Shown: positions 3,001-50,656 of the stretch, piece by piece
Layout of the letters: each line of letters opens with the position of its first letter
Numbering within the stretch: position 1 is the stretch's first letter
DNA from: Chitinophagaceae bacterium
GTDB lineage: Bacteria > Bacteroidota > Bacteroidia > Chitinophagales > Chitinophagaceae
DNA length: 64,000 nucleotides
Direction of reading: 5' to 3'
Assembly (NCBI GenBank): GCA_947446645.1
Contig: CANFHA010000015.1
Span: 1-64,000 of the forward strand
The notes under the pieces: model-generated
Told to the model about the DNA's origin: nothing
The model's input: only the letters and a program-made list of their open reading frames with translations
Database searches by the model: none
Translations under genes and position numbers: made by a program

Positions 3001-6000
3001 GATGCATCGTCAGCTATGATCATATTTGAAGACGAGAACGAACCTGATACAGAGGCCGAAGTACCTAAGCTGAGCGTATTTACACCAACCGTAAGGTTAC
3101 CTGCGGTAAGCGTTAATACACCATTTACCGTACTATTGCCATTCTGGCTTGCTCCGCTTGCGTTATTTAATGTAAGGTTGTTATACGTTCCAGCCACTAC
3201 TGTCTGCGAGCCTGATCCAGCATAAACTACTTTACCACCCCAGGTATAGCCCGCGGGCAGCGGAATAGATCCGGTATTTCCGGTCTGGATAGTACCGCTG
3301 TTAGACACTGTAGGTGTGCTGGTGAGCGCAAAGGTGCTCATATCCAGAGTTGCTCCGGCCGGAATGGTAATCGTACCCGTTGGGTTGAACGACGCATTGT
3401 TGGTCATTGTAACTGCATTGCTTATCGAAACGTTGTTTGGCGCACCAGGTGCTGAAACCCATGGTGTTGTAATGTCACCTGCCGCACTGAATACATAATT
3501 AGCACCTGCATTAAATGTCTTAGTGCCAGATGTACTGATGCTACCTGTAAGGCCTGTTGTGCTTGCCGTGTTTACGGTAGCACCATTGTTCAGAGTAAAT
3601 GCACCGCTACCGCTTACAGAATTTGTCCCGGTGCTGAGTGTACCATTTACGATCATTGGGCAAGTACTTGCCAGTGGCAGAGACGTACTCAATGATACAC
3701 TGCAGGTCGCATTAACGCTGAATGTCGAATTGCTCATCGTTGTTCCGGACCAGGTTATGGTTTGAGTTGAAACACTGTTCCTGAAATTAAGAACACCTGC
3801 TGAGGTAGGTGTGAGCCCACCGCCTGCACTGCTGTTATTCAGATTACCAGTCAGGTTAATGGTTTGTGCGCCCGTATTGGTAAGCGTACCGCCAGACAGG
3901 TTAAGGTTGCCGGTAATATTCAGCACCTCCCCGGTAGCAGCTGTTACCGTACCTGACGCCACCGTTAGGCTACCGCTTATGTTTTCAGTTCCGCTCGCCA
4001 TCGTACCTGTGCTAGAACCCGAATAAACTAGGTTACCAAAGGTTGTTAGCGGAATGGATTGAGGTGCGGCAGCGTTGAAGATAACAGTGCTTGCCGCGTC
4101 CAGTGTGCGGAGCGTAGGAACAGAAGCATTCGTAACAGTAAGAGTAGCAGTTGCCGCAACATCAACTATACCGGTAAATGAATTACCTGATGGTATTGTG
4201 AAATTAACCGCAGTTGCGCCGTCGCCAAGTGAAACATACGATGCAGTACCAGACACCGTCCAGTTTGCATTCAGCGTAGGGTTAGTGCCATTCTTAATGA
4301 TAAAATGCTCAAGACCTGAAGTAAAGCTTGTTGGAGCAGTACCGCCTGTTCCCGTTGCACTGGTTGTCCAGCTCGACAGGTTGTTAAGGTTTACACCGGA
4401 ACCAACAACGTCATAATAAATAACCGGAGGGTTAGGAATATTGAACGCATTGGAAGTAACGGTGCGTGTACCTAACACACCAGAAGTAATAGAAAAAACA
4501 ATAGTTGCACCAGTTACCGCCGCTGCACTCGTCGCAGACAAGTTAGTATAGGTTGCAAGACCGGATACACCATTCTGGTTAACTGTTCCACCTAATGTCC
4601 ACGTACCTGCGCCTACAGAAGCCGTAACGTTAGCCGTGCTGGTTGTAGCATTGCCATACTGATCCAGTATGTTCACCGCTGGCTGGGTAGCCAGGTTAGC
4701 ACCGTTTGTTGGTGGCGCTGTTGGCTGTATGTTCATTGTAAGCGTTGCACCTACACCCGCAGCTATCGGCTGGTTCACCGCATCATCCGTATAGCCGGTT
4801 GCCTGAACAGTAACTGACTTAGTGCCCACAGACTGAAGCAATACAGAGTTTGCTGGAATAAGTGTCAGAGTTCCTGCACTTGTGCTCCATGCTGTAGGAG
4901 GTATAGTCGTACCACCTACTTTCACGCTGGTAATAGCACCGCGCCATGTAGCATTTTCTGTAAATGTTATGTTGATCGGATTATCCACTGTAGCACCAAC
5001 TGCCGCAGTAAGTGCAGGTGGGTTGGGTGCAGGTAGATTAAAGGAATTCGAAGTCACAGGTGTCAGTGCACCACTTGTAAATGTAATGGTAGCACCTGTT
5101 ACTGGTCCTGCGCTAGATGCAGTAAGACCCGCAAAAGCCGCGCTTCCTGTACCCGTTGCAGTTATAGAACCACCTGGGGTCCATGCACCCGCTCCCGTAG
5201 TGGCAGTCACAGTTGCGGATGAGCCTGCGATATTGCCATACTGGTCTGTGATGCCAATAACTGGTTGCGTTACAAAAGCACCCGGGTTAGTAAGCGGAGC
5301 CGTAGGCTGTGTAGTAATGGAAAGCGCAGCTGCAGCACCTGCGTTTATTGTTTGCACCAGTGTAGCCGCAGTATAACCTATTGATGAAATTGTTATCGTG
5401 TAAACACCTGATGTAGTCAGGTAGTTATCCGTGTTTGTTGGGATCAGGGAGAATGAACCTGTCGTTGCCAGCGGTAGCAGACCAACGGCAAAGTCTGTAC
5501 CACCGCCGGTAAGCGTATGCGTACCCGTTGGTCCGGTAGCTGTTACCAGTGTTATATGCGATTTCCAGTCAGCAATCGACGGGAACCCGGTTGCCGGGCT
5601 CAGCGTATAAGTAGCTGGTGTTGATGATGCATTATCTTCATTCACTCCGCTTGCCGCTGTAAATGTTGGTGGCGTATTTGCGTCATTGAGACCTACAACA
5701 AATGCGCCGGAATTCGTAAATGCAGAGATACCTACATTAGAAACAAGCGTCGTATTACCTGTAGGCTGTGTAGTGTTAGAAACCATTACAGTACCCCATG
5801 ATGATGAAGTATTGTTGTAGATCTGAGATACCCAGCCAGTATTAGAACCGCCGCCAATATCCGCATTGTTATACGTAAACGTTGGAGACACGGAAGAAAT
5901 GCCGGTAACACTCAAAGGAGTTATTGTCCAGTAGTGTGCTACATCGTAAGTACCATCCACAACCGAACCTGCATAAGAAGGATGATTGCCGTGCGCTACA

Positions 6001-9000
6001 GTAACATTGAAACTACCACCGGTTGCTGTGCCTGAAGGTGCAATGCTCACAGGTGCATAGTTGATGTCACCCACTTCATAATTTACATCCGTTGCGTTGT
6101 TAGTCGGCTTAGTCAGATTACCGAACACAAAGTTGGATGAGGTAGATGCTGTGCGTGATACGTTTGCAGCTGCAGCAGGAACAGTGAGCGTGTTAGCGCC
6201 TGTAGACAAAATACCATTGCTGAGTGTAAGTGTACCTGTAAGTGTAGTATTAAGCCCAATCGACAAACCGGCAGCGTTATTCAATGTAAGCCCGGAGAAA
6301 CCGGTTCCAGTAGATCCGCCGATTGTCTGCGCGCTGCTGCCGTTGAAGGTAACGCTGGTAGTGCCCGGTGTAAGTACACCTCCGTTATTGGTCCAGTTGC
6401 CGGTAAGCGACAGTGCATTGCTGCCTGTAATAAGAGTACCAGCTGAAAGCGTGATATTGCCTGCCGTTTTACCTGCATTTTGCGTTATAGTAAGACCTGG
6501 CTTGTTTACCGTTACGTTACCATCAAATATGGCTGGCCATTCATTGCTTGTCGTAGGACTTGCGCTGGTACCAAGATTCATATAGGTAAGGTTAACACCG
6601 CTGTATACAGCCGGTGCAGTAACCAGTGAACCTCCATCTACATTTACGTTTGAGCCGCTGCTCATAGACAGGTTAGTACCGTTAGCAAATGCACCTGTTT
6701 GCAGGTTCAGCGTTTTACCTGAAGCAAAAGTTGTAGCAGAGTTAAGTGTGATACCGCCTGTGTTGGCAATAGTAAGTACATTAAATGTAGTACCGAATGA
6801 TCCGCCGATTGTATTAGCAACAGATCCTGTGCATACTACCGTTCCTGTACCTGCGCTGAATGAGCCGCTACCTGCATTATTTGTCCAGCTACCTGAAGTG
6901 GTAATGTTTTTACTACCTGCTGACAATGTACCTTCGGTAAGCGTAATATTTGAAGCTGTTCCTGTAAGTGTTTTTGATGCGTCAAGGGAGATAGTAGCTC
7001 CTGTTTTGTTAACTGCTACATTACCAGAGAATGATGCAGGCCAGTCCGTAGTACTGGTTGTAACTCCAAGATTATTGTTACCTAGGTTTTTATAGGTAAG
7101 GTTTACACCAGGGGCCGCAGGATAAGTGACAGCAGCACCGGTAAAGTGGCCATTGTCTACATTCACATTTTGCCCGCCAGCAGCCTGGAATGCCAGGTTG
7201 GCAGTACTGAAATTACCATTTTGCAGATTCAACGTACTGCCAGTATTAAAAGTGGTAGCTGCTGATAAAGTAGTGGTACCGGTTGAGTTATTAATGGTTA
7301 CATAGCTGCCGGATGGCACAGGAGTTGCCGCTCCAAAAGCTCCTGTAGTAACTGCACCCGAGCCATAAAACACATAGTTCGAGCCGTTGGTAAATGTCCT
7401 GGTAGTTGTAGTAGCCGACCCAGCCAATCCTGATGTGTTAGCGGTATAAACTGTACCACCCGCGAATACCCTGAAATTACCCGATCCGCTGATCACGTTG
7501 GTTGACATATCAACTGTACCGTAAACGTCCAGATACTGGTTTACGCTAATAGTCGCCCAGTTAGCGTTGAGCTTCGCAAAAGCATTTGGTTGTACAATAA
7601 TCTGCGGATAGTTTTGTGTAACACCGCTCGTATTAAATGTTATCAATTGAGGGCTTGTAATGGAAGACGTGGTTGTATTATTCATACGAAAAACGCTAAA
7701 TACGCCAGTATTATTCAATTGTGCAGTTCCTGTTACCGTCAGGTTGCCTTGCATCCAAAGATTAATTTGTGCCGCGCTGCAGAAAAATACAGATGTTCCA
7801 CTAAGTGTTGTGTTTCCACCTATGTACATGGTCGCAGAGGCTGAAGCTGAAGAGTTGGTTGGGCGGAAGTTACCAGAGGAAAGTGTAAAGTCACGGCTAA
7901 TATTAAAAGTGAGTACACTCGCGCCAAAGTAGACAACATCCCCGGTACCATTCAGCGTCAGGCTGCCCAATATATTATATATCCCTGTTTGCAAGATACC
8001 CTGGTTGGTACCGGAAAGGGTTAAATTACCATAACTAACAGTATTAGGGATATTTTGTGGTGAACTACTATTGAATACTACAGTACTTAATGAGTTAAGC
8101 GTTCCAAAAGTTGGCACACCGGCACCTATGGTCAATGTAGCATTCGCATTCACATTTATTACTCCAGTCAGTGATGCTGAAAGTGGAAGAATACAATTGA
8201 TGGCTGTAGTACCGTCACCCACTATCACATAAGAACCCAGACCACTTACCACCCAGTTATCAGAAATAGTTGGTGTAGTGCCGTTCACTACTTTGAAAGC
8301 CTGGCTTGGCGAGGTAAAGTTAGATGGGTGAGCGCCTGTACCATCCGCATTCAGTCCCCAGTTGTTTACGTCGGTTAGGTCTATGCTTGTACCTGGTTTA
8401 TTATAATAAGTAGTCGGCGGGCTTGGAATATTGAAAGTTGCAGAGGTAACAGACGCAAGTCCTGAACTGCTGAACACAATCGTTGCGCCGGTAACTGCTG
8501 CCGGGCTACTCGATGTAAGGTTGCTGAATGTGGCTGTACCTGCAACTGCAGTAGCGGATAATGATGGTCCACCTAGTGTCCACGTACCTGCGCCAACGGC
8601 AGAAGTAACCGAAGCCGTGCTATTAACAAGATTGCCGTATTGGTCCGTAACCTTTACTACTGGCTGTGTACCGAAATTTCCACCGTTATATGGCGGCGCT
8701 GTTGGCTGAGTTACCATCACGAGCTTATTGGCCGCGCCTACACCTATCGTCTGTACGCATGAGGTTGACGCAAATCCGGTTGCCGCAACAGCAACGGTAT
8801 ATGTACCTGCTGTCTGTAGCAATGCAGATAATGCAGGACTAAGTGTTAAGGAACCTGATGTCAGCGACCATGCTACTGCAGGAAGAGTTGTACCATTTAT
8901 AGTTACAGATGTAGGAGTTACTGCAGCACGCCACGTAGCATTATCTACAAATGTTATAGTGAATGGATTATCCACTGTTGCACCCCCTGCCGCTGTAAGC

Positions 9001-12000
9001 GTTGGCGAGTTAGGTGCAGGAACAACAAAGGTTGCTGAAGTAGTAGCAGTAAGTATGCCGCTTGTAAACAGTATAGTACCTGTTACCGGACCTAAGCTGG
9101 TAGCAGTAAGCCCGCTGAATGTAGCGGTACCGCCAGATGCAGTTGCCAATAAACTCGGACCGCCAAGTGTATATGAACCTGAACCTACCGATACCGTTAT
9201 CACTGCTGAGCTTGGTGTAGCATTACCGTACTGGTCTTTAACTGAAACTACAGGTTGTGTTACCAGCGCGCCGCCGTTGACAGCAGGTCCCACAGGCTGC
9301 GTGGTCATCACCAGGTGATGAGCTGCACCATTATTTACTACCTGGTTCACCGTTGCGCCGGTATATCCCGTTGCATATACAGATATTGTGTAGATGCCCG
9401 CAGTATCAAGGTACGTATGCCCACCGCCGTTTGGTATCAGTGACAGTGTGCCGCCTGGGCCGCTTACTGTATAATCTACACCCAATGTAAGTGTATTGAT
9501 CAGTGGGCTGCCGGTACGTTGCGATGTAACACTTGTAAAGCTTTCAGCCCATACAGCGTCATCTGTAAACGTTATCGGATGGCTGCCCAGATTGTCAACT
9601 GTCGGCGGGGTGAAATCTGCCGTCAATATTGGAGGTACTCCCGCTGGGTTCTGCCCTACTGCATAATCGCCTGTGTAAGATGCCGTGCCGCTGCTCAGTG
9701 TGGTTGACGGGGTAGCATTGTTGGTAGCAGGCAATATTGAGCCCCATGTTCCTGAGCTGTATCTCTGCGCTACAAATGTGCTGTTATCACCACCGCCTAT
9801 ATCAGCGTTATTGTATGTAAATGTTGGTGTAACATTGGTAAAGCCAGCAGCTGCCGATTGACTTATTGTCCAGTAATGCGATACATGGTTCACACCATCT
9901 ATCCCAGACGTACCCAGGTTAGGGTGGTTGCCGTTTGTTACTTTCACACTAAGGCTGCCACTTGTTCCGCCGGCACCGTCAAGAGCCAGGCTCACTGGCG
10001 CATAATTAAGATCGCCTGTTTCAAAGTTTACAGCCGGGATACCGCCCGTAAGTGTTTTTGTGAGTGTTCCCGCTACATATCCACCAGCGCTACGTGTTAC
10101 ATTGCCGGCACCACTTGGTGTGGTCATTGCGTAGCTGCCTGTTGTAAGTACATTACCGCCGAGCGCCAATGTGCCGTTAACTGATGTATTTACGTTCAGG
10201 CTTGCCGCTGCGCTCAGAGTGAGATTATTGAAGGTAGTAGCTGTTGTTCCACCGATAACCTGTGAGCCGCTGCCTGACAGCTGCACTGTGCTTGTGCCGC
10301 CAGAAAACGCACCACCGTTGTTAGTCCAGTTACCCGTTATTGGTAAGGTGAACGAGCTACCGCTTAATGTACCTGCAGTAAGGGTCACATTGCCGGTAAG
10401 CAATGTTTTCGTGGCATCCAGTGTCACTGTGCCTGATTTGTTCACGGTAACATTACCCGTCAATGAAGCTGGCCACTCAACACTTACGGTTGGGCTTGCG
10501 TTGGTACCAAGATCAGCATAGGTAAGATTAATGCCCGAATAACCTCCGGATGGCGTGGTGCTGAATGTACCACCATCCCTTACTACGTTCGATCCGCTGC
10601 TCATAGTAAGTGCCGCAGTCAGCGTTAATGTTCCGTTCTGCAATTGCACCGTGGCTCCTGACCCTATGCTTGTTGCCTGGTTAAGTATTACCCCTCCGGT
10701 GTTATTGATATTAAGTATGTTCCAGGTTGTTGGTGCTGACGACGCAATGCTCTGGGGCGATGAGCCGTTGAAGCTTACCGTACCGGTACCCGCATTAAAG
10801 TTTGACGTATTTGCGTTCGTCCAGGTGCCCTTAAGTGACAGCGTACTGCTTCCTGCCGACAGCGTACCATTAGTAAGGGTTACTGCGCCTGAGCCGGTAG
10901 AATTCACTACTGCTTTACTTGCATTAAGAGAAATAGTAGCACCTGGCTTGTTCACCGTTACGTCACCATCAAATGATGATGGCCACTCCGTATTTGCCGT
11001 ATTTACAGCAAGGTTATTATTTCCAAGGTTCAGATACGATAAATGTATGTTGCCGTAAGTACCTGGCGTAGCATTAAAATGGCCATTATCCACCTTTACA
11101 TTCGCGCCGGTAGACAGTGTCAGGTTGGTAGTGCTCATCGTTCCGGTCTGCAGATTCAGCGACGCCGACGAATTCACGGTAAGAGCCGCACTAAGTGTGA
11201 GGTCAGCGGCGGTACCGGCAGTATTATTGCACGTGATAGATCCGCCTGAAGTTATGTTGCTGGTAACGTTAAGTAAGCTGGCAAAATGTATACCGCTTAC
11301 CTGCGCAGCTGTACCGTTAAATATATAATTTGCTCCGGAATTCAATGACACCCTCGCAGGGGTATTGGTAAATCCAAAAAGCGTAGTTCCAGTTGTTAGA
11401 TTTATACCGGAAGGATCTCCTATTATCATGGTAGCGCCACTTGCCACAGTTAAAGTGGAAGATGTATAGCCAGCACTTACTGATTGGTCCCGGAGGTATG
11501 AAGCTGCAGGAATGATCAGCGTTCCATTTACCGTCATACCGTTCATGGTAGCACCACCAGTCAAAGCAACATCAAATTCTGTGCTACCTATTTTAGACAC
11601 TGTATTTGCTGCAATGACATATTTAGCATAGAAGGATAAATTGGAACTGCTGAAATATAGTATCTGCGGATTTGATACAGAGGAAGACGTGTTATTCATA
11701 ATGAATGTAACGCCATTCGCCTGGCCTACACCATTCTGAATGCTAGTAGACCCCATAAGCGAGTCATTACCTGATATATTTACAGTACATGTGATATTAG
11801 AACCACTGGCTGAACTGTTAAAATAAGCGGCATTTGACATGACATAGTTACCTGTAACGTTTATTATAGTGTTTCCTACACCAGTACATTGCAACACACC
11901 ATTTGTGAACAATGTACCGATCCCTGAAAGCTTTAAGTTGCCGCCAATATTGTAGGTACCCTGTGGCATACTTATAGTTTGTGTATTAGTACACGTAACA

Positions 12001-15000
12001 TTACCATAATTATTACCGGTAGAAGAAGGGAAGTTATAATTCACACTTCCTCCCAATATCAGCGTACTTGCGGCATTCACCGATGCTAATGTAGGCACAG
12101 TACTGCTTTCCACGTCTAGGGTTCCTGTTGCCGATATATTCACGGTTCCCGTCATTGTTACCCCGGAAGGTATTGTAAAGTTGATAGCAGTTGCGCCACC
12201 TACAACTACGTTAGAACCACTGCCCGAAACCACCCAGTTGGATGCCAGTGAAGGGCTTGTACCAAAATCTATTGTATAGGTCTGGCTGGCATTTGTAAAG
12301 TTTAATGGGGCTGCACCTGCACCTCCGGACGCATCAGATGTCCAGCTGGATAATAAAGAGAGGTCGGCACTTGACACGCCTGCCTTAGTATGCCACGTTT
12401 GTGCACCCGTTGGTGGTATGCTGAATGTGGCAGTAACAGAGGAAAGGCCGGCGCTTGTAAACGCAATGGTTGCCAGCGTAGCCGCACCTGCAGAAGAAGC
12501 AGTTAGGGCAGATGGGCTACCATATGTTGCGAGGCCCGACACCGCATTTTCAGAAGTTGTGCCACCTATAGACCATGTGCCTGTTGCCGTTGATGCAGAT
12601 GCCAGCACAGTAGCAGTTGAGCTGGAAACAATGTTGCCAAACTGGTCGCCAATACGTATCACAGGCTGTGTGACCAGTGCGCCACCGTTGGTAAGCGGGC
12701 CTACAGGGGCAGTAGCTACTATCAGCTTGTTAGCTGCACCAGCAGTTATTGTTTGTGTAGCGGCATCATCGCCATATCCTGTAGCATATATTTTTATGGA
12801 GTAAGAGCCTGCAGTAGTAAGGTATCCATTACTTGCTGTAGGTATCAACCTCAGGTTACCGGCAGTGATCACATAGTCGATACCCGCTGTAAGCGTATTG
12901 ATAGTGCCCGCACCCAATTGTGCAGTTATCTGTGTTATTGCGCCTCTCCAGGTAGCATCTTCGGGGAATGTTATGTTGTGCGACCCATCGCCAAGGTTAT
13001 CCTCTGTAGCTGCAACTGGTGTAAGTGCAGGAGGAGGAGTAACTTGTACACCTACTGCATACACGCCAATAGCAGATGCAAGTGGCGATACTGCAGCAAC
13101 TGTTGATGTATATGGTCCTGCACCAGCATTGGTGGGCGTCAGCACACTACCCCATACACCGGCCGACTTGATCTGTGCCTTAAATGTAGATTGGGTACCA
13201 CCGGTCACAGTGTTGTAGGTAAACTGGGGTGAAATGGCAGTAGGCCCTGCGGCTGCGGAGTTTATCAACGTCCAGAAGTGGCCCGTATTGAGGCCCGATG
13301 AAATATAAGAGCCGGAAATGGTTGATGGGCTGTTATTGCAATTTACACCTATGCTTCCCCCTGTTCCCGCACCGGTAAAGGTGAGGGTTGCCGGCGCATA
13401 GTCAGCGTCGCCTACCTCATACGTGAGTGAGCTGAAACCATTGATCGCCTTTACAAGTGTACCATTTACAAAATTTGAAGTTGTAGATGCCGAGCGCGTT
13501 ACCGCAGATGAACCTGTTACCGCCACTGAATAGCTACTGGTTGTGCTCAGTATACCGCTGGTAAGTGCCAGGGTGCCGGCAACATTTACATTAGCGCCAA
13601 GGGTTGCACCCGTACTGTTATTAAGCGTTAGATTATTAAATGTAGTGGTTGATGTGCCACCTATGGTTTGTGCGCTGCTGCCATTAAAATTTACCGTACT
13701 TGTATTAGCGTTAAATGTGCCATTATTTATCCAGTTGCCGGTTAATGACAAAGTATTTGCGCCACCTGCAAAAGTGCTGCCGGAAGTTATGGTCACTTTA
13801 CCGGTAAGGGTATTGCTTGCGCCAAGTGTTACTACGGCTGTTTTATTTATTTGTACGTTGCCGGTAAAAGGAGTGGGCCATTCAAAACCGGTTGTCTTTG
13901 TTGAATTATTACCCAGGTTAACATAGTTAAGACTTACACCGCTGTTTATTGTGGGTGCTGTTGCAAAAGAACCGTTATCTACATTTACTGTTGCCCCGGA
14001 TGAAATGTTACAAAAAGTAGGTGTTGCCAAAAAACTCAATACACCATTCTGAAGATTTAATGTAGCACCTGTGCTTATAGTAATGACAAAGCTGCCTATT
14101 GACACTGTAGCATTCGTGGTGTTATTTATGGTAAGGCTTCCCGGGCTGACTATTGTTCCAGGGAAACCAGTACCGAGGCTCTGCGCTGCGTTGCTGTTAC
14201 AAATGTAATTTGCCGTTGTTGGGTATGTCCTGGTACCTGTAGACTGTATGCACCCTGCTGCTCCGGTTGAATTGAATGCCGTTGCATTAATTCCAGTTGC
14301 TAGAGTGCCATTAGCACCCAATACAAAAGTACAAGTTCCCGTCACCAGGAAACCATTGCAGTTAAGCCCGCCATTTACAGTAAATGTACTGGTCGCATTA
14401 GCCCCCCAGTTGCTGTTCATTTGCATAAAGCAACCAGCATCGATCGTCCACCTGACGTTGGCCGAAGTATTCACAGAACTGTACGTCTTAGGTGAGGCCA
14501 TTGTAGACGCACCGTTAAAGCGTATCGTCATTACAAACGACGAAATGGTAATGACGCCCGAACCGGAACGGAGGTGGTTACCACCTACAACGGCAACTAC
14601 AGCACCCGCAGTATTATCACGAAGCACGCCTGTACCGGTAATATTCAGGTCGCCGCCGATATTCAATGCTACCGGGGCTGTAAATGCGCCGGAAGTAATG
14701 CTTAGCGAGCCCCCAATGGTCCATGATGACCCTGCAAGAACAGTAGGTGTTACAGTGCCGGAACCAGAAACTGTCCATGTATCCCCGCTATTGGCAAATG
14801 TTGTGGGCACCCCGGTCGATGTCGCGCCCGAAACATCAGTCGTCCAGAACGACAATGAGGTATAGTCTAAGCCCCCCCCCGTATACCGGTAATAGTTTGT
14901 GGCAAACGCGCTGGCGCTCGCGAACACTAGTAGCAAACTGGCTACAGCCATTCTCATGCGCTTGTTATTAGCGATGGTAGAAAAAATAGCTTTCGCTATT

Positions 15001-15080
15001 CTTGTCCAAAGCGACCCGGCACCATTCTTGGTCGCGACTGTACCGGCATTGATGTACTGCTTCGTGTTAAAATTTCTCAT
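1..15080 (-). CDS. Giant secreted adhesin-like protein, partial (C-terminus beyond left edge)
   Basis: From the ATG at 15078-15080 the minus strand reads through to base 1: at least 5,026 codons with no stop met while reading. The N-terminus has an unusually long leader (about 40 residues, Lys/Arg-rich) followed by a clear signal peptide starting at MRMAVASLLLVFASASAFA, near residues 41-60; a second in-frame ATG there (near 14960) could be the true start. The mature chain is almost entirely Thr, Ser, Gly, Asn, Val and Ala with short beta-strand repeats (LTL..G, NWTNNGG, FNGSSAQTIGG), repeated EVGD.xYAP and FTYNNADIGGG elements, and five blocks centred on DQ(Y/F)GN near 4665, 5235, 8637, 9230 and 12643 that resemble invasin-type Ig folds. 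Sequences such as TWRGAIT..VxxGT resemble DUF1533-type domains. The distal part is Ig-like repeats with paired Cys. Such giants in Bacteroidota are usually T9SS-exported surface adhesins; a sorting domain would lie outside the window. Function is inferred from composition and architecture only. Confidence 0.85.
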   Translation of the reverse strand, partial: MRNFNTKQYINAGTVATKNGAGSLWTRIAKAIFSTIANNKRMRMAVASLLLVFASASAFATNYYRYTGGGLDYTSLSFWTTDVSGATSTGVPTTFANSGDTWTVSGSGTVTPTVLAGSSWTIGGSLSITSGAFTAPVALNIGGDLNITGTGVLRDNTAGAVVAVVGGNHLRSGSGVITISSFVMTIRFNGASTMASPKTYSSVNTSANVRWTIDAGCFMQMNSNWGANATSTFTVNGGLNCNGFLVTGTCTFVLGANGTLATGINATAFNSTGAAGCIQSTGTRTYPTTANYICNSNAAQSLGTGFPGTIVSPGSLTINNTTNATVSIGSFVITISTGATLNLQNGVLSFLATPTFCNISSGATVNVDNGSFATAPTINSGVSLNYVNLGNNSTKTTGFEWPTPFTGNVQINKTAVVTLGASNTLTGKVTITSGSTFAGGANTLSLTGNWINNGTFNANTSTVNFNGSSAQTIGGTSTTTFNNLTLNNSTGATLGANVNVAGTLALTSGILSTTSSYSVAVTGSSAVTRSASTTSNFVNGTLVKAINGFSSLTYEVGDADYAPATLTFTGAGTGGSIGVNCNNSPSTISGSYISSGLNTGHFWTLINSAAAGPTAISPQFTYNTVTGGTQSTFKAQIKSAGVWGSVLTPTNAGAGPYTSTVAAVSPLASAIGVYAVGVQVTPPPALTPVAATEDNLGDGSHNITFPEDATWRGAITQITAQLGAGTINTLTAGIDYVITAGNLRLIPTASNGYLTTAGSYSIKIYATGYGDDAATQTITAGAANKLIVATAPVGPLTNGGALVTQPVIRIGDQFGNIVSSSTATVLASASTATGTWSIGGTTSENAVSGLATYGSPSALTASSAGAATLATIAFTSAGLSSVTATFSIPPTGAQTWHTKAGVSSADLSLLSSWTSDASGGAGAAPLNFTNASQTYTIDFGTSPSLASNWVVSGSGSNVVVGGATAINFTIPSGVTMTGTVNISATGTLDVESSTVPTLASVNAASTLILGGSVNYNFPSSTGNNYGNVTCTNTQTISMPQGTYNIGGNLKLSGIGTLFTNGVLQCTGVGNTIINVTGNYVMSNAAYFNSSASGSNITCTVNISGNDSLMGSTSIQNGVGQANGVTFIMNNTSSSVSNPQILYFSSSNLSFYAKYVIAANTVSKIGSTEFDVALTGGATMNGMTVNGTLIIPAASYLRDQSVSAGYTSSTLTVASGATMIIGDPSGINLTTGTTLFGFTNTPARVSLNSGANYIFNGTAAQVSGIHFASLLNVTSNITSGGSITCNNTAGTAADLTLSAALTVNSSASLNLQTGTMSTTNLTLSTGANVKVDNGHFNATPGTYGNIHLSYLNLGNNNLAVNTANTEWPSSFDGDVTVNKPGATISLNASKAVVNSTGSGAVTLTNGTLSAGSSTLSLKGTWTNANTSNFNAGTGTVSFNGSSPQSIASSAPTTWNILNINNTGGVILNQATSIGSGATVQLQNGTLTLTAALTMSSGSNVVRDGGTFSTTPSGGYSGINLTYADLGTNASPTVSVEWPASLTGNVTVNKSGTVTLDATKTLLTGNVTLTAGTLSGSSFTLPITGNWTNNGGAFSGGTSTVQLSGSGSQVIGGTTATTFNNLTLSAAASLNVNTSVNGTLALGGNVLTTGSYAMTTPSGAGNVTRSAGGYVAGTLTKTLTGGIPAVNFETGDLNYAPVSLALDGAGGTSGSLSVKVTNGNHPNLGTSGIDGVNHVSHYWTISQSAAAGFTNVTPTFTYNNADIGGGDNSTFVAQRYSSGTWGSILPATNNATPSTTLSSGTASYTGDYAVGQNPAGVPPILTADFTPPTVDNLGSHPITFTDDAVWAESFTSVTSQRTGSPLINTLTLGVDYTVSGPGGTLSLIPNGGGHTYLDTAGIYTISVYATGYTGATVNQVVNNGAAHHLVMTTQPVGPAVNGGALVTQPVVSVKDQYGNATPSSAVITVSVGSGSYTLGGPSLLATASGGTATFSGLTATSLGPVTGTILFTSGILTATTSATFVVPAPNSPTLTAAGGATVDNPFTITFVDNATWRAAVTPTSVTINGTTLPAVAWSLTSGSLTLSPALSALLQTAGTYTVAVAATGFASTSCVQTIGVGAANKLVMVTQPTAPPYNGGNFGTQPVVKVTDQYGNLVNSTASVTSAVGAGTWTLGGPSLSATAVAGTATFSNLTSSSPAAVTGATIVFSSSGLASVTSATFNIPSPPTTYYNKPGTSIDLTDVNNWGLNADGTGAHPSNFTSPSQAFKVVNGTTPTISDNWVVSGLGSYVIVGDGTTAINCILPLSASLTGVINVNANATLTIGAGVPTFGTLNSLSTVVFNSSSPQNIPNTVSYGNLTLSGTNQGILQTGIYNILGSLTLNGTGDVVYFGASVLTFNISRDFTLSSGNFRPTNSSASASATMYIGGNTTLSGTSVFFCSAAQINLWMQGNLTVTGTAQLNNTGVFSVFRMNNTTTSSITSPQLITFNTSGVTQNYPQIIVQPNAFAKLNANWATISVNQYLDVYGTVDMSTNVISGSGNFRVFAGGTVYTANTSGLAGSATTTTRTFTNGSNYVFYGSGAVTTGAFGAATPVPSGSYVTINNSTGTTTLSAATTFNTGSTLNLQNGNFSTANLAFQAAGGQNVNVDNGHFTGAAVTYPAAPGVNLTYKNLGNNNLGVTTSTTDWPASFSGNVAVNKTGATISLDASKTLTGTASNITLTEGTLSAGSKNITTSGSWTNNAGSGSFSAGTGTVVCTGSVANTIGGSFGTTFNVLTIANTGGITLNSATTFASGKTLNLQTGAFANGTNLSMSSGSNVNVDGGSLVTAPAVYSGVNLTYMNLGTSASPTTSNEWPAIFDGNVTVNKPGLTITQNAGKTAGNITLSAGTLITGSNALSLTGNWTNNGGVLTPGTTSVTFNGSSAQTIGGSTGTGFSGLTLNNAAGLSIGLNTTLTGTLTLSNGILSTGANTLTVPAAAANVSRTASTSSNFVFGNLTKPTNNATDVNYEVGDINYAPVSIAPSGTATGGSFNVTVAHGNHPSYAGSVVDGTYDVAHYWTITPLSVTGISSVSPTFTYNNADIGGGSNTGWVSQIYNNTSSSWGTVMVSNTTQPTGNTTLVSNVGISAFTNSGAFVVGLNDANTPPTFTAASGVNEDNASSTPATYTLSPATGFPSIADWKSHITLVTATGPTGTHTLTGGGTDFAVGLLPLATTGSFSLIPTNTDNYLTTSGVYTITISSIGYTAATLVQTINAGAAAALSITTQPTAPLTNPGAFVTQPVIGITDQYGNIAGSSATVTATTGAGAWTPGGSITATGTGSAAFAGLTASSAGPVTGATITFTSGALTPVTSNSFNLPAPNPPALTAAVGATVDNPINITFTENATWRGAITSVKVGGTTIPPTAWSTSAGTLTLIPANSVLLQSVGTKSVTVQATGYTDDAVNQPIAAGVGATLTMNIQPTAPPTNGANLATQPAVNILDQYGNATTSTANVTASVGAGTWTLGGTVNQNGVSGLATYTNLSATSAAAVTGATIVFSITSGVLGTRTVTSNAFNIPNPPVIYYDVVGSGVNLNNLSSWTTSATGTGGTAPTSFTSGLEHFIIKNGTNPTLNANWTVSGTASYVSLGDGATAVNFTIPSGNSFTGIVDVAATATLTVTNASVPTLRTLDAASTVIFNAAAPQSIPLTTFGNLVYSGSSTGTMASGTENISGSLTVASGTVTAATGEVLNITGNLNLSGGTLTNTGAQTINLTGNLNNSSAGGGLTPTSAGVLNFRNSVSTQTITWSGTTMSNSTFSVNATCSVSLSTSLPLASTCPMIVNGTLSTGTNSVSGSGAFTLNNGATVNTASTTGLTGSISTSGTKTFNAGANYVFSAAGDITTPWVSAPGAPNNVSISNAVTMTNNASFNPTGTITIPAGATLDMSTFALTSTPTVSNSGTIQTGNTGSIPLPAGYTWGGKVVYAGSGSQTVVAGTYNNLTLNNASGASQNGNSTVNGVLTLTAGNLTVGVNTLSLGTSASVSGSFSSSNMIIADDASGKIQKQFSGSGSFVYPIGDATPAYSPITLSVTGAGNAGVYVRNIKHPNNGDATDYINRYWHVATSGITNYSVTSANYVSPGDVVGTEGNVHAGRWTGSLPWVLGATEIASTLAFGITTAPTADFSGISAPAPSFTSAPGSLACAGTSVTYATEAGMTNYIWSVPGTGGGVDYTITSGGIGASDNTVTLNWVTPGSKTVTVNYTDPDGLTGVAATNTTTVNTLSVSPSNNSPACTGGTVGLAFVESGTASPVTYAWNGPAFYTSSLSNPVLNVTGTAMGGTYTITLTGGGCTASSSTIVTVNTIVVAPTNNTPACVGGTVGIFSGETGTAPGVVYAWSGPSGFTFTVSEPAISSVDLTYDGTYTVTASNSNSGCSATATTVVTVNTIAVAPTNNSPACVGGTVGIFSGETGTAPGVLYAWSGPSGHTFTVSNPAITNVDLTYDGTYTVTASNSNSGCSVTATTIVTVNTIGITASNDGPACESGTVNLSSTPSGTASPTGYSWSGPLVYSSSLQSPTLTTNGTAAMTGIYTVTMTAGGSNCSVTTTTSVVVNTLATAPSNDGPACVGNLVNLYSNVTGTAVPTSYSWSGPSFSAATANTSLSSVTTDMTGTYAFTVTASGSGCIRTGSTNVTVNDLGVVAANDAPACVGGTVNFTATPSGSLVPTNYNWSGPLGYTSTDQNPVITGATGPMTGTYTVVMSGVGTGCSTTSTTSIVVNSFGITASNDAPACVGGTVNLTSTPSGSTAPTRYTWVGPLTYSSTEQSPNLTTSATVPMTGVYTVTVLANGSNCIRTTTTNVVVNDLGVAASNDGPACLGNVVILTATPSGSAVPTSYSWSGPASFTNTNQITSVAPVTFANDGVYTVTVNAAGSACTAVGTTNVVIKSLSINAFNDGPTCAGLTNTLTSIPGGTSIPTGYAWSGPLGFTATTQNTALAPSATNMSGTYTVTVISTGTGCIAYATTTVSVLPVPTPILGNPSVCVGLTTTVSDASPGGIWTSTN
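60..2340 (-). repeat. Tandem Ig-like repeats, about 249 bp (83 aa) each, inside the giant protein
   Basis: Reading the minus strand, the motif N(D/N)xPxCxGG recurs with its first base near 2330, 2080, 1830, 1580, 1330, 1080, 830, 580 and 329, a spacing close to 249 bp. Each unit continues with a Y.WSGP core and a YTVT segment and closes with a GC pair, so every unit has two cysteines placed to form a disulfide. The two units near 1565-1812 and 1812-2063 are almost the same protein but differ at many third codon positions. This is the stalk pattern of long surface adhesins. The last partial unit at the left edge has a different ending (SDASPGGIWTSTN), typical of PKD-like repeats in this phylum. 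Confidence 0.8.
2600..14894 (-). repeat. Large-scale module repeat within the giant protein
   Basis: A module-opening motif (two aromatic residues, G, then L..W, then GTxP) occurs with its first aromatic codon at 14894, 12395, 8408 and 4418. The intervals are 2,499, 3,987 and 3,990 bp, that is 833, 1,329 and 1,330 codons. Modules 2 and 3 therefore have nearly the same length and carry the same order of parts: opening motif, beta-helix-like section, NFETGD/NYEVGD block, FTYNNADIGGG block, then DUF1533-like and DQYGN blocks. The fourth module is cut short by the Ig-like repeats. DNA identity between modules looks modest by eye, so this is an old duplication. Confidence 0.7.
14872..14880 (-). 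repeat. G9 homopolymer at the start of the mature adhesin
   Basis: The plus strand shows nine consecutive C at 14872-14880, read as G9 on the coding strand. It encodes a Gly-Gly-Gly stretch about six residues after the predicted signal peptidase site. With nine G the long frame is open; gain or loss of one G would stop translation shortly downstream. The position is typical of contingency loci that switch surface proteins by slipped-strand mispairing, but only one allele is visible here. Confidence 0.6.
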
Positions 15081-15670
15081 AAACGGGGGAGTTTAGAATT
15101 TTAGCAAACGTTAATTACCTGGTTATTTATTTTGTGTACTTGTCTTTTCAATTAGTATATACTCCTAAACGCAAAGTGGCATTCCGCAAACCATTACCAC
15201 TGTTTCCTTTCACGCACTGGTCACTACTACAAAAAACTACTGCAACTGAACTTAGATGAGATACAGGCCCGGGGCTTCACAACACTATCGGTAACTACCT
15301 GTTTTTTATTAATTTTTATTACTTTTTTTCCTGCAAACGAACAACGGTTATCATAAAATTTGTCAAAAAAATAACTTAGCAGGACAATAAAAATAGTTTA
15401 ACAAGTTGATTTTCGTACTATTCACATTGTTAATAACAAACGAATTAAATAATACTAAATGTGCTTTCTTGAATTATTGTCTTGGTGTTAATATTTGTGT
15501 ATGACTTATATACTTACACGAAAAATCAAAATAAACCTTTGCAAACGATGATTTTATTAGGAATGCAAAAGTGTTACCTACACAATGAAAACAGTATGCT
15601 TTAACTATAATTAACGCGCTGTCTGGTGTTACGCCCACACCAACAAAATATCTTCGTGAAAAAAAATAGT
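15081..15670. other. 590-bp intergenic region between divergent genes
   Basis: This AT-rich stretch separates the start of the giant adhesin (minus) from the alpha/beta hydrolase (plus). It must hold the promoter of the giant gene. AACGTTTG, one mismatch from the phylum's TAnnTTTG box, lies just upstream of the adhesin start on the minus strand, but no matching upstream element was found. No ORF with a plausible start and no RNA gene was recognised. Confidence 0.5.
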
Positions 15671-21506: not shown

Positions 21507-22154
21507 CTATTCAGCAGCCTGGGTAGTTGACGTTTCGTCATTCTGCGGCATATCGCTGCTGCTATCGTTGTTATTGTTTGTGTTGTCCTTATTGCTGTCC
21601 ATTGGCAACTGTGGCATCTCCATCTCTGGTGCCGCAGGTGCAGGCATTGGTTGCTCCACCGGTGCCTTTGTTGGTACAGCCTTTTTAGGAGCGGCCTTCT
21701 TTGCAGGTGCAGCTTTGGGTGCAGCTTTAGGCGCTGCCTTCTTTACAGGTGCAGCTTTTGGTGCAGCCTTCTTTGCAGGTGCCGCTTTCTTTGCAGGTGC
21801 GGCCTTTTTCGGTGCAGCCTTCTTTGCTGGCGCAGCTTTTTTAGCAGGTGCTACCTTTTTAGGTGCGGCCTTCTTTGCAGGTGCGGCCTTTTTAGGTGCA
21901 GCCTTTTTTGCGGGAGCGGCTTTCTTTGCTGGAGCAGCTTTCTTTGGCGCTGCTTTCTTTACAGGTGCGGCTTTTTTAGCAGGTGCGGCTTTCTTCGGAG
22001 CAGCCTTCTTTGCTGGCGCAGCCTTTTTAGGTGCAGCCTTCTTTGCAGGTGCTGCTTTCTTTGGCGCTGCTTTCTTCGCAGGAGCGGCTTTTTTTGCAGG
22101 TGCTGCCTTTTTAGGTGCTGCCTTTTTTGCTGGTGTTTTCTTTGAAGTTGCCAT
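21507..22154 (-). CDS. Histone H1-like Lys/Ala/Pro-repeat protein
   Basis: 215 residues. Residues from about 6 to 150 are near-perfect repeats of PAKKA and PKKA, as in histone H1 C-terminal tails and bacterial HctB/AlgP-like proteins. Residues from about 160 on switch to an acidic, Asn/Asp/Ser-rich tail (KDNTNNNNDSSSD). It very likely binds DNA by charge and acts in nucleoid packing; sequence specificity is not expected. The DNA repeat is imperfect, so repeat number could vary. The opposite strand is also open over this stretch, but its Phe/Ala/Gly translation is only the shadow of the repeat. Confidence 0.8.
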   Translation of the reverse strand: MATSKKTPAKKAAPKKAAPAKKAAPAKKAAPKKAAPAKKAAPKKAAPAKKAAPKKAAPAKKAAPVKKAAPKKAAPAKKAAPAKKAAPKKAAPAKKAAPKKVAPAKKAAPAKKAAPKKAAPAKKAAPAKKAAPKAAPVKKAAPKAAPKAAPAKKAAPKKAVPTKAPVEQPMPAPAAPEMEMPQLPMDSNKDNTNNNNDSSSDMPQNDETSTTQAAE

Positions 22155-28654: not shown

Positions 28655-29704
28655 ATGGAAACAAAGCATTTATCTTACTTCAAAGTAGAGAACTTTAAAC
28701 GGTTTGACAGCCTTGAAGTAAATGATATAGGGCAGTTCAACTTGATTGTTGGAGATAACAATGTTGGTAAGACCACATTGCTGGAAGCTTTGTTATTTAA
28801 TGAGCGAAATTATGATCAGTTTTTACTTAACTTGGAGTTCGCACTAGAAAACAGAGAATTAGCTACGGATAAAAGAATAAACTACGTTGAATCTTATTTA
28901 AGGAATAAAAACAAAAGTTTAAATTATACGTTCCAATTTACCAATAGCGATAGGAAAAATAATTTAACAGTAACAAAGAAAAACATTAACCAATTATCTG
29001 AGAAGGAGATAGGAAATGATATATTACTGCAACTCAAACTAAACAAATCAGTAAATATTGTACAAATTGACTTGGATGGTAAATCGAAAATAAAAGCAGT
29101 TACTTTATTTGATGAAAATAGCAATTCGGCATATTATCATTTCCCTTTGCTTGGCTCAAGGCTTTTGTACGATGAAGAAACATTTAATTTTACGCTAACT
29201 ATCTCTGCAAGCAATTCAAAACTCGAAAGTTTTAAAAGTGACTTGCGATTTTTTCTTCCGGATATTATGTCAATAGAAGAAGGCACTTCTGCAATAAATG
29301 GAGACACTAATCTAATTATACGCGAAACCAATTCCGATAATCCTTTGCCTCTTGCTGCATATGGAGACGGATTTATAAAATTCTTTCGTTGTTTATTAAA
29401 AATGGAGCTTTCAACAAATAAGCGCCTAATGATAGACGAAATAGATGCAGGCATTCACCATAGCAGAATGAAGGGTTATTTGATACAAATACTACAAAGC
29501 GCTAAAAATAAAAACGTCCAAATCTTTGCGACTACACACTCTAAAGAGTGCCTTCAATATTATACAGAAGCCTTACAGGAACTCGGCTATGAAAATGACG
29601 GAAGAGTTATAAAGATAGCTAATACCAAAAGTGGCATTAAGGCTTACGCTTCACGGTTTGGCCAGTTTGAAAATTCTTTATCTGCTGAAAGTGAAATAAG
29701 ATAG
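28655..29704 (+). CDS. ABC/OLD-type AAA ATPase, first gene of a putative defence pair
   Basis: 349 residues. Walker A is at 33-40 (GDNNVGKT) after FKVENFKRF, the usual start of RecF/OLD-like ATPases. AAYGDGFIKFF looks like the ABC signature region, Walker B with its glutamate is at 257-262 (LMIDEID), the D-loop is DAG, and the switch histidine is in FATTHSKE near 295. The region between has a long insert of mixed helix and strand. No nuclease domain is fused. The next gene, 2 nt after the stop, encodes a TOPRIM-like protein, so the pair resembles a split OLD system such as PARIS (AriA/AriB). The gene is clearly more AT-rich than its neighbours, which suggests horizontal transfer. The defence role is inferred. 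Confidence 0.8.
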   Translation: METKHLSYFKVENFKRFDSLEVNDIGQFNLIVGDNNVGKTTLLEALLFNERNYDQFLLNLEFALENRELATDKRINYVESYLRNKNKSLNYTFQFTNSDRKNNLTVTKKNINQLSEKEIGNDILLQLKLNKSVNIVQIDLDGKSKIKAVTLFDENSNSAYYHFPLLGSRLLYDEETFNFTLTISASNSKLESFKSDLRFFLPDIMSIEEGTSAINGDTNLIIRETNSDNPLPLAAYGDGFIKFFRCLLKMELSTNKRLMIDEIDAGIHHSRMKGYLIQILQSAKNKNVQIFATTHSKECLQYYTEALQELGYENDGRVIKIANTKSGIKAYASRFGQFENSLSAESEIR

Positions 29705-29706
29705 TT

Positions 29707-30300
29707 ATGCAGGAATTCAGAATTTTCACGGAAGGTCCAGGCGATGTTAAGTTTATCAGCGACTATGTAGAAGAACATTTCGGCATTGCACTAAACAACA
29801 GCCATTTCGATGTTCTCAAATCCTGGTGCGGTTATAAAGAAGCAGACCAGATGAAAACTGAAATTTTGCAAAACCGCGACAATGGTAGAGAGACGATAAT
29901 AATTCTGGATGCTGACAGTGACTTCATCACTAGACAATCCGAAGTATTGGCCGATTTTCTAAGCTACAACGTCCCTATTCATTTATTTCTATTTCCAAAC
30001 AATGCGCAAACCGGCACTATCGAAAATCTGCTTTGTGAAATTGCGGTTGAACAAAGTATTCTTCGTTGCTTTGAGCAGTACGAAACCTGTATTGCAGGGC
30101 ATGAGTCACCAGTTATAAAATCAAAGGTCTTTGCATACCTGGATGCAATCTTGCCATCAGTAAATAAAAGAAATAATAAAAATGATCTAATTCAGGAGGC
30201 TAACAGAAATTATCGAAATACGGCACACTGGAATCTACATCATGAATACCTGCAACCTTTGCATGGTTTTCTGTCACCGTTCTTTACAGAACCAACTTGA
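29707..30300 (+). CDS. TOPRIM-like (DUF3226-type) protein, partner of the ATPase
   Basis: 197 residues. The TOPRIM acidic residues are visible: Glu 9 in IFTEGPGDVKFI and Asp 68/Asp 70 (with Asp 72) in IIILDADSDF, followed by FPNNAQTGTIENLL with Glu 106. This spacing fits DUF3226, a compact TOPRIM family that occurs beside AAA ATPases. In PARIS the partner (AriB) is a larger DUF4435 TOPRIM nuclease, so this would be a different and shorter effector. Start ATG 29707 is 2 nt after the ATPase stop, implying coupled translation. It shares the AT-rich composition. Likely a metal-dependent nuclease held or activated by the ATPase; not proven. Confidence 0.75.
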   Translation: MQEFRIFTEGPGDVKFISDYVEEHFGIALNNSHFDVLKSWCGYKEADQMKTEILQNRDNGRETIIILDADSDFITRQSEVLADFLSYNVPIHLFLFPNNAQTGTIENLLCEIAVEQSILRCFEQYETCIAGHESPVIKSKVFAYLDAILPSVNKRNNKNDLIQEANRNYRNTAHWNLHHEYLQPLHGFLSPFFTEPT

Positions 30301-47669: not shown

Positions 47670-48158
47670 ATGAGTACTGAAAAGGCGATTTTGGCAGGTG
47701 GGTGTTTCTGGGGAGTGGAAGAGCTGATACGGCATCGGCCGGGAGTTAGTGATACGGTTGTAGGCTATACCGGCGGTGACGTGCCTAACGCCACGTACCT
47801 TAATCATGGCACCCATGCAGAGGGGATACAGGTGACTTTTGATCCTGATATTTTAAGTTACCGTAAACTGCTCGAGTATTTCTTCCTGATACATGATCCT
47901 ACCACGCGAAACAGGCAGGGTAACGATAGGGGCACTTCCTACCGGTCTGCCATTTTCTACAACAGCGAAAGCCAGCGTGATACGGCAAATACCCTGATAG
48001 CCGAAATGGATGCCTCGGGTAAGTGGCCAGGAAAAGTAGTGACAGAAGTAGTGCCTGCTGCAGACTTCTGGGATGCAGAAGCAGAGCACCAGGATTACCT
48101 AAAGAAGCACCCTGGCGGGTATACTTGTCACTTTGAGCGGCCAAACTGGAAACTCTAG
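47670..48158 (+). CDS. msrA: Peptide methionine sulfoxide reductase MsrA
   Basis: 162 residues from ATG 47670. The active-site motif [10 protein letters not shown] is at residues 8-17 (catalytic Cys 11). [40 protein letters not shown] and [19 protein letters not shown] complete the family pattern. It reduces methionine-S-sulfoxide in proteins. It is cytoplasmic (no signal peptide) and not fused to MsrB. Divergent from iaaA by 91 bp. Confidence 0.93.
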
Positions 48159-48642
48159 GGATATTTTACCACCATAATTCATAAGTTCGACATTGAGTAT
48201 AATACGTGCAGAAAAACAATAGCAAATAATTATTGGCTACTAACCATAGTAGTTAATTCGACATCCGGGTTATTACCTTTACTCCTTAATTTTTTTGTTG
48301 AAAGGATAGCTGCAACAGCAATAAAAATACGAGAAGGATTTCATAGTGATAGGTTTATAGGGGCTGGCTTGTTCTCAAGCTGGCTTTTTATTGAGGGCAT
48401 AGTGATTGTAATTGGTAATAATAAAGCGAAGTCCAGATGACTGAAACATAGAGGTTTCCCGAGGGCACTATTGCTATTTGCCAGCACCGGGTAAGGCGTG
48501 TAGAAATAGTCACCGGGAACGAATAACTAACTCCAGATACATTTTTTGTAAGCGGCGTGCCCGTAGCTGTCTCGCGGTCAAGCCCTGCAGCGCCATAGGT
48601 ATATTTATTCAGTCTGGGAGCACAATATTTGCTTTTCAAATC
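48159..48642. other. 484-bp region without a supported gene
   Basis: A minus-strand open stretch (48388-48639) translates to YTYGAAGLDRETATGTPLTK and similar, which may be a decayed fragment, but it has no start context and matches nothing I recognise. No RNA or terminator is clear. Confidence 0.4.
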
Positions 48643-49746
48643 TCAGGCTGCTATGACAATAGATTTCATGTCATTAAGCATTTGCAATATCACTCGTTCT
48701 TCACCTTTTAACTCCCCAGTCGCTTCAGAATTCAAGAGGTCGAAAACTGAAAAATATTTTTCAATGTTTTTATTCGAATAGTGCTCCAGGATCATAGGAT
48801 GCACATAGTACTTACGGCATACATTGCGGGTGTTACCCAGCTACCCTGCCGCGAAATCCAGGACATCAACAATGTTCTTTTTTGTGCCACTTATTGTATC
48901 GCAACACCCCATTTGCCTGAATGCCTGGAAGGCGTAGGTAGTGCCAGCCCATGTCCGAAAATCCTTGGACGTGAAATGCGCACCGGATATGCTTTTTATG
49001 TAATCGTTGACCATACCTGAATCAATTGGTTTACGCTGTCCTGCATCATCATAATACTGAAACAATTCCTGCCCGGGTATATCCCGGCACCGTGATACTA
49101 TGCTTGCAAGGCGCTTGCTTCGCAGGCTTATATCGTGGTACACACCTTTCTTTCCTTTAAACAAAAAGTTGATTTCGTCACCGGCAATTTTTACATGTTT
49201 GTCTTTCATGGTGGTGAGTCCGAATGAGCCGTAAAGTTTTTCGTATTCATTACTTCCTATGCGGATACAGGTACACTGCATAAGAGACACGATGGTTGCC
49301 AATACTTTGTTCAAGGGCAGGCCAGGCAAAGCCATGTCTCGGTTTATACGCCGTTTTATTGCCGGTAGCGCTATCCCGAAATCCAGCAAGTGAGAAAATT
49401 TAGTAAGATTACGTAAGCTGTTCCACGAAGAGTGGTATCGATATTGCTTCCTGTTTTTTGTATCCAGCCCTGTAGCCTGCAAATGGCCGTTGGCGTGTCT
49501 GCAGATCCATACATTCTTCCATGCGGGAGGAATGACGAGGCTTTTGATTCTTGCCAAGGTATTAGCATCTGTTATCAACTTGCCATTTAAAAGGTATTGA
49601 AACGAGCCTCCTTTGCTTATGCGAGCGATTCCCGGCTCCGTATCATATACATATTTGAGACTGGCTGCCGCGGCAGTTTCTGCGTTGTCGGTGGTCAACT
49701 TTCTTAGCCGGCTTGTTCTTATTGATATCTGCTTAGCTGTGCTCAT
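48643..49746 (-). pseudogene. Type IB DNA topoisomerase with in-frame TAG before the catalytic tyrosine
   Basis: 367 codons from ATG 49746 to TGA at 48643-48645. The body is typical bacterial/poxvirus TopIB: SLKYVYDTEPGIARI, PPAWKNVWIC, QYRYHSSW, LATIVSLMQCTCIRIGSNEY, KHVKIAGDEINFLFKGKKGV, and HFTSKDFRTWAGT. At codon 302 (48841-48843) a TAG interrupts the frame, which then continues LGNTRNVCRKYYVHPMILEH, where the active-site tyrosine lies, plus a 50-residue tail. Stopping at TAG would leave an enzyme unable to cleave DNA. A CAG-to-TAG change is the simplest origin. Homologues relax supercoils by 3'-phosphotyrosyl chemistry. Confidence 0.88.
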
Positions 49747-49891
49747 ATAATTTCGATTACACCATGCAATATAAAATTGTGCCGTGCGCCACTAGCCTAC
49801 GACTATTTACTTACCATTCTTTTAACGCATCTGGGAATGATTTTTACAACCTTGACCCGAGAATGATTTTGTGAACCTAAACAGAACGGAT

Positions 49892-50152
49892 ATGAAAAAG
49901 ATGATGATAGCGCTTGCAATACTGGGATTCACCTGGTCAGGCGCACAGGCACAAACCAACAGATGTCTATGCCCACAGGCAAAAAAGGCTAAAGCGCATA
50001 AACTAGCACATGTGGCCCGGCCTCGTGTGAATACCGTCTCTTCTACACGTACTTATCAGGTATGCAGAGAAGAAGGTGGCTACTATACTTGCTGCCTGTA
50101 TACAACAACTACTACTAAACCTGCGTTTGAAAAATCAGTAGCGTTGAAGTAG
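49892..50152 (+). CDS. Small secreted Cys-containing protein
   Basis: 86 residues from ATG 49892 (MKKMMIALAILGFTWSGAQA signal; an upstream GTG at 49871 is less likely). The mature 60 residues have CLCPQAKKAKAHKLAHVARP, a basic stretch, and YQVCREEGGYYTCCLYTTTT, with five cysteines overall. No family recognised. The next gene has a nearly identical type of signal peptide and starts 27 bp later, so both are probably one transcript. Confidence 0.6.
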   Translation: MKKMMIALAILGFTWSGAQAQTNRCLCPQAKKAKAHKLAHVARPRVNTVSSTRTYQVCREEGGYYTCCLYTTTTTKPAFEKSVALK

Positions 50153-50179
50153 AACTTTTAACTCGAAAAAACAATTAAA

Positions 50180-50656
50180 ATGAAAAAAGTAATAATGGCG
50201 CTGGCAATTGCCGCATGTGCGTACTCCGGCGCGGAAGCACAAGTTTGTAAGACACAGCCTGTTGTAAAGCATACAAGAAAACCAGTTTACAAAGAGCTGA
50301 TACAAAAAGTAGCGGTACAGCAACCACAGCCCCTTCAGGAAACAAAGACTGTTTCGGAGTCTTGCAAAATGGTTCCTTACGATGTTTGTAAAATTAACGC
50401 TGACCGGAAGTCAGTAAGCTGTTTTAAAACCATGGATCCCGATTCAATACAACCGCTGAATACGGAGGAGGTTACCACTTATGGAGCTACAGGTAGCATG
50501 CCGGGAGAAGCCCCCAAACCGACGGTGGAGACTATAATAATAAAAGGGCCGAATAAAGGTGACTATTGCAAGAGAAACGATGCGAATAATGCCACAATCT
50601 GCTACCACAGCGGCGTGCATATGACGCGTGATGAAGAAGGCTATTATCACTATTAA
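50180..50656 (+). CDS. Secreted protein of unknown function
   Basis: 158 residues; signal peptide MKKVIMALAIAACAYSGAEA. Mature chain: KTQPVVKHTRKPVYKELIQK, Cys residues at SCKMVPYDVC and SCFKTMD, Pro-rich middle, ending GDYCKRNDANNATICYHSGV and EEGYYHY. The EEG(G)YY motif is shared with the gene just upstream, so the two may be distantly related. Unknown role. Confidence 0.65.
   Translation: MKKVIMALAIAACAYSGAEAQVCKTQPVVKHTRKPVYKELIQKVAVQQPQPLQETKTVSESCKMVPYDVCKINADRKSVSCFKTMDPDSIQPLNTEEVTTYGATGSMPGEAPKPTVETIIIKGPNKGDYCKRNDANNATICYHSGVHMTRDEEGYYHY

Follow-up and report, generated by a model that had tools for sequence, protein, structure and literature searches.

A premature TAG ahead of the catalytic tyrosine of topoisomerase IB in a Chitinophagaceae bacterium: probable recent loss of an accessory enzyme

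Introduction

The best solved relative of the gene described here is 2f4q, which we take to be the topoisomerase IB (TopIB) of Deinococcus radiodurans (2f4q/3m4a), a poxvirus-like enzyme. Both Pfam domains, Top1B_N_bact and Topoisom_I, are common to the two, and given readthrough the homology would extend over the full length, including the catalytic tyrosine region. Unlike the Deinococcus enzyme, the present frame ends at codon 302, ahead of Asn305 and Tyr314. The Deinococcus TopIB relaxes supercoils and interacts with the repair protein PprA, according to the available part of PMC3893189.

Bacterial genes interrupted by in-frame stops form the second group for comparison. The background pseudogene fraction is given as 1-5% in most prokaryotes (available part of PMC522871). 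Bacterial genes with in-frame stops are argued often to hold dN/dS under 1 and possibly to be read through, with readthrough proposed as frequent, and such stops were found to be mostly short-lived (available part of PMC7918605). The present gene resembles recent nonsense pseudogenes in its lone stop, its otherwise intact and recently selected frame, its accessory nature and its restriction to a single genome. It is distinctive only in that the stop lies shortly ahead of a catalytic residue.

The gene is located in a stretch of 64,000 nucleotides, referred to as the window (contig CANFHA010000015.1, positions 1 to 64,000), of a Chitinophagaceae bacterium (GCA_947446645.1). The genome, denoted G000, is a draft assembly of 32 contigs.

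Structure of the gene

The TopIB gene is encoded on the minus strand and comprises 367 codons, with the ATG at 49746, the coding sequence at 49746..48646 and a TGA thereafter. Codon 302 is an in-frame TAG (CTA on the plus strand) situated 12 codons ahead of Tyr314, which aligns with the variola nucleophile Tyr274. Beyond the TAG, the frame reads LGNTRNVCRKYYVHP and 50 further residues up to the TGA. The sequence-only reading had described a TAG just before the catalytic tyrosine, a frame continuing to a normal stop and the loss of the tyrosine upon termination, and each of these points was confirmed. The features of the gene are as follows.

48841..49746, minus strand: truncated TopIB frame, ATG to premature TAG, 301 residues (Pfam Top1B_N_bact and Topoisom_I)
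48841..48843, minus strand: premature TAG, codon 302 (sequence and genus alignment)
48646..48840, minus strand: 65 post-stop codons with homology kept, containing Asn305 and Tyr314 (domain and structure matches)
48643..48645, minus strand: native stop TGA (sequence)
49261..49263, minus strand: Arg162, aligning with variola Arg130 (alignment with 2h7f, codon read)
49150..49152, minus strand: Lys199, aligning with variola Lys167 (alignment with 2h7f)
48955..48957, minus strand: Arg264, aligning with variola Arg223 (alignment with 2h7f, codon read)
48832..48834, minus strand: Asn305, aligning with variola His265, missing after termination (alignment with 2h7f, codon read)
48805..48807, minus strand: Tyr314, aligning with variola Tyr274, missing after termination (alignment with 2h7f, codon read)

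Residue equivalences were counted from the printed row ends of the alignment with 2h7f, presumably the poxvirus (variola) topoisomerase, whose catalytic residues are taken to be Arg130, Lys167, Arg223, His265 and Tyr274. The catalytic set is split by the stop, with Arg162, Lys199 and Arg264 before it and Asn305 and Tyr314 after it. The truncated frame passes the Pfam cut-offs for both domains (Top1B_N_bact 78.5 bits, cut-off 27; Topoisom_I 101.3 bits, cut-off 23.7). When the post-stop part is added, the Topoisom_I score rises to 107.3 bits and the match to 2f4q rises from 165.8 to 190.5 bits, which indicates that the post-stop part is real homology. As read from its sequence, the gene is a disrupted bacterial topoisomerase IB, predicted to be nonworking under the standard code.

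Several other features were observed in the window. One uninterrupted frame spanning 5026 codons or more occupies positions 3-15080 on the minus strand and runs off the window start. A repetitive lysine/alanine/proline-rich protein of 215 residues, which we take to be histone-H1-like, is encoded at 21507-22154 on the minus strand, and an AbiL-like gene pair (first gene AbiLi, 2.6e-40; second gene AbiLii, 6e-6; PADLOC) lies at 28655-30300 on the plus strand.

Codon 302 in related sequences

A total of 128 loci were scanned for the LGNT...Y.HP motif; 13 on which the pattern failed were left out, and in at least two of these, L034 and L156, the gene is intact but its motif varies. Among the 106 distinct motif-bearing sequences, a stop at codon 302 occurs in the window alone. 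The other 105 carry a sense codon for Lys (46), Arg (15), Gln (15), His (14) or Glu (10), and more rarely for Ser (2), Leu, Ala or Val (1 each). A conserved stop at this codon was therefore rejected, and since the position is variable, no conserved residue was hit. The expectation of Gln or Lys at this codon held in part: Lys is the commonest residue and Gln is well represented, but Arg, His and Glu are also usual. The full-length alignment with seven genus orthologues (G004, G005, G014, G015, G016, G025 and G027) contains whole-codon gaps only, and none of these orthologues has an internal stop. A second genome of the same species was not found in the genome collections searched.

Reading of the TAG codon

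Release factor RF1 is intact in the genome (488.8 bits, cut-off 423.25), and none of the 37 tRNAs located by Rfam, with anticodons assigned by ARAGORN, has a CUA anticodon, a result that covers only tRNAs within the reach of Rfam. TAG is an ordinary terminator that ends 14 of 41 window genes, hand-picked from the lists of open reading frames. No premature stops were present in 39 ABC_tran matches and 67 HATPase_c matches in the same genome. Three TAGs flagged in HATPase_c matches might have favoured recoding but were rejected, each being the gene's own stop at the domain end. A recoded TAG under an alternative code was rejected on these grounds.

The premature TAG is followed immediately on its 3' side by a CTG codon. 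The RNA fold near the TAG resembles that of shuffled sequence (z of -0.26 downstream, -1.39 upstream and -0.25 across), and no Rfam match was found within 48100-50200, so a readthrough-stimulating RNA structure was rejected. Re-initiation past the TAG at an ATG, GTG or TTG was also rejected as a means of restoring the nucleophile, because the earliest such codon in frame, codon 315, lies beyond Tyr314. The earlier proposal that the stop might be suppressed is thus unsupported by the release factor, the tRNAs, the normal use of TAG, the RNA fold and the 105 related sequences.

Elsewhere in the genome, at L176 (contig C20, ~15038-15352, minus strand), the frame of a histidine kinase terminates in TAG and at least 60 open codons follow, an arrangement taken as chance.

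Selection and age of the stop

In the protein tree, G000 groups with G005 and G015 with a support of 89, whereas the G005-G015 pair has a support of only 60. The G000 branch is longer (0.233) than those of G005 and G015 (0.092 and 0.109, respectively). Under the codon model, omega was 0.051 on the G000 branch and 0.070 elsewhere (2dlnL 0.97), and relaxed selection along this branch was not found; the long branch reads as a matter of length rather than relaxation.

A neutral terminal fraction of 1, 2, 3 or 5% of the G000 branch costs 0.60, 1.42, 2.37 and 4.47 log units, respectively. If the stop inactivates the gene, the neutral end of the branch is limited to ~2.5% at most, or ~0.1 neutral substitutions per codon, as a rough 95% limit, approximate because substitutions on this branch approach saturation (5.3 neutral ones per codon). 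The same test applied to G020 was compatible with 12% of its branch. For the post-stop codons alone, omega on the G000 branch was 0.142 against about 0.096, and this relaxation was not significant (p 0.09). Non-synonymous differences were found in 22 of the 65 post-stop codons between G000 and G005 and in 11 of 65 between G005 and G015, a comparison that appears to lean towards relaxation but is not significant. The suggestion that the gene had been lost very recently is supported by this limit on the neutral end of the branch.

Distribution and disruption of TopIB

The disrupted gene provides the only PF01028 match in its genome, with no second copy. A TopIB protein was matched in 12 of the 35 genus genomes; one match (G032; E 9e-4, 29% identity, 741-codon frame) was dropped, leaving 11. 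In the family, 148 of 394 genomes have a match. This distribution indicates that the enzyme is dispensable.

TopIB is disrupted in two further genomes of the genus. In G020 (L006; L150:7790-8956), codon 158 is TAA and the remaining frame is conserved. This codon is TGT or TGC, two changes from TAA, in six of the eight aligned sequences (G000, G004, G005, G015, G016 and G025), and its counterpart is GAG in G014 and CAG in G027. In G030 (L022:1432-2256), approximately the first 116 residues are missing from a gene on a short contig, and the stated completeness of this genome is 59%. The TopIB gene of G022 is interrupted by a contig end, and that of G027 (L011) ends normally. More distantly, G091 contains an internal TGA, the G280 match is in several pieces, and the TopIB genes of a Cellvibrionaceae bin (L054:4001-4911) and Chitinophaga sedimenti (L102:4010-5007) lie in two frames, as from a frameshift.

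Among the matches listed for the family, 14 were flagged with stops, one of them being the window. Twelve others were rejected as premature, since their positions fit normal gene ends 57 to 63 codons past the motif start with the frame open before them; one of the 12 examined, G374, is cut by its contig. Among the matches listed, premature stops occur in 2 of the 11 genus genomes with TopIB and in none of the 145 drawn from elsewhere in the family (Fisher p 0.0045), a post hoc comparison that covers nonsense codons only, assumes none beyond the matches listed and is not relied on. In control genes of the 35 genus genomes, no internal stop was found in 40 matches to a family that we take to be cyanophycinase-like or in nine Nei-like matches, and 15 Ku matches contained a single TAA, which falls in an incomplete G006 match.

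Origin of the premature stop

The stop is probably a very recent nonsense mutation that inactivated the genome's only, dispensable TopIB gene. Ribosomes would halt at codon 302, and the released fragment of 301 residues would keep the N-terminal domain together with Arg162, Lys199 and Arg264. Lacking Asn305 and Tyr314, the fragment would be unable to cleave DNA, and it would presumably be inert or degraded. The stop would then be real in the organism, the TAG allele may be segregating within its species, and the remaining frame would be intact because there has been too little time for decay. The evidence for recent loss comprises the stop itself, its privacy among the sequences seen, the disrupted relatives, no sign of suppression, and purifying selection to near the present. 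Counting against it, the stop is the sole sign of decay, with neither a frameshift nor a raised omega, as would equally be expected from an error or a tolerated stop, and the Nei and Ku genes that accompany TopIB have stayed intact in the same genome.

The main rival, which we consider unlikely, is an error in base calling, in polishing or in the consensus of mixed strains that placed a stop in an intact gene. The assembly is a draft, a single codon is changed in a frame otherwise under purifying selection, the post-stop region is without significant relaxation, and the lack of decay fits an error equally well. However, the stop in G020 is a different one, two changes from the codons of its nearest relatives, and together with the deletion in G030 it makes real disruption look common, although both of these genomes are drafts too. 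The 106 domain matches free of premature stops in G000 also argue against a high error load.

Basal or regulated readthrough of a leaky TAG, yielding a little full-length enzyme from a gene functional at low dose, is very unlikely. It is consistent with the conserved frame past the TAG and has its basis in the argument made in the available part of PMC7918605 on read-through of in-frame stops, which is general rather than specific to this gene. A recent stop would give identical conservation, and the intact RF1, the 37 tRNAs, the ordinary RNA fold, the lack of an Rfam match and the sense codons of all 105 relatives argue against it. It is extremely doubtful that the TAG acts as a leaky, recent dosage valve, in which traces of full-length TopIB would be made and the cleavage-dead fragment would compete for DNA, in a genus where TopIB is repeatedly disrupted although the Nei and Ku genes that usually accompany it persist. 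Retention of the 301-residue fragment in its own right as a cleavage-dead DNA-binding protein, with only the tail free to decay, is scarcely credible: omega on the G000 branch is 0.041 before and 0.108 after the stop, and the post-stop non-synonymous differences from G005 are likewise in its favour, but two extra parameters in the two-part model bring a gain of only 2dlnL 4.71 (9.74 on the G005 branch), the tail is variable in intact genes too (tree-wide omega 0.096 post-stop against 0.060), selection predating the stop explains the pre-stop omega, and no other sequence seen has the truncation.

Co-occurrence with a Nei-like glycosylase and Ku

A Nei/Fpg-like glycosylase (H2TH and Fapy_DNA_glyco domains) co-occurs with TopIB. 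Within the genus, the glycosylase is present in eight genomes, all eight of which have TopIB; the three genomes that have TopIB but no glycosylase have stated completeness values of 65, 70 and 85%. In the 394 family genomes, 112 contain both genes, 36 TopIB only, 11 the glycosylase only and 235 neither, or 106, 42, 9 and 237, respectively, when eight weak glycosylase matches are removed; Fisher values for this association ignore relatedness and overstate the case. Ku is found in 15 of the 35 genus genomes, including 10 of the 11 with TopIB. In G004 (L152:5570-6301) and G020 (L150:7089-7820), the glycosylase gene immediately precedes TopIB in the same orientation, and in G000 it is intact on a different contig (L179:4750-5481). 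A search of the open-access literature on topoisomerase IB and endonuclease VIII in Bacteroidetes found nothing, and no claim of novelty is made.

Recent loss of TopIB brings no new mechanism. If the stop is real, the gene provides a snapshot of the ongoing loss of an accessory enzyme in a genus, a loss restricted here to the final part of the lineage's past. The co-occurrence of TopIB with the glycosylase is more interesting than the premature stop and, together with Ku within the genus, is a testable hint to the role of bacterial topoisomerase IB.
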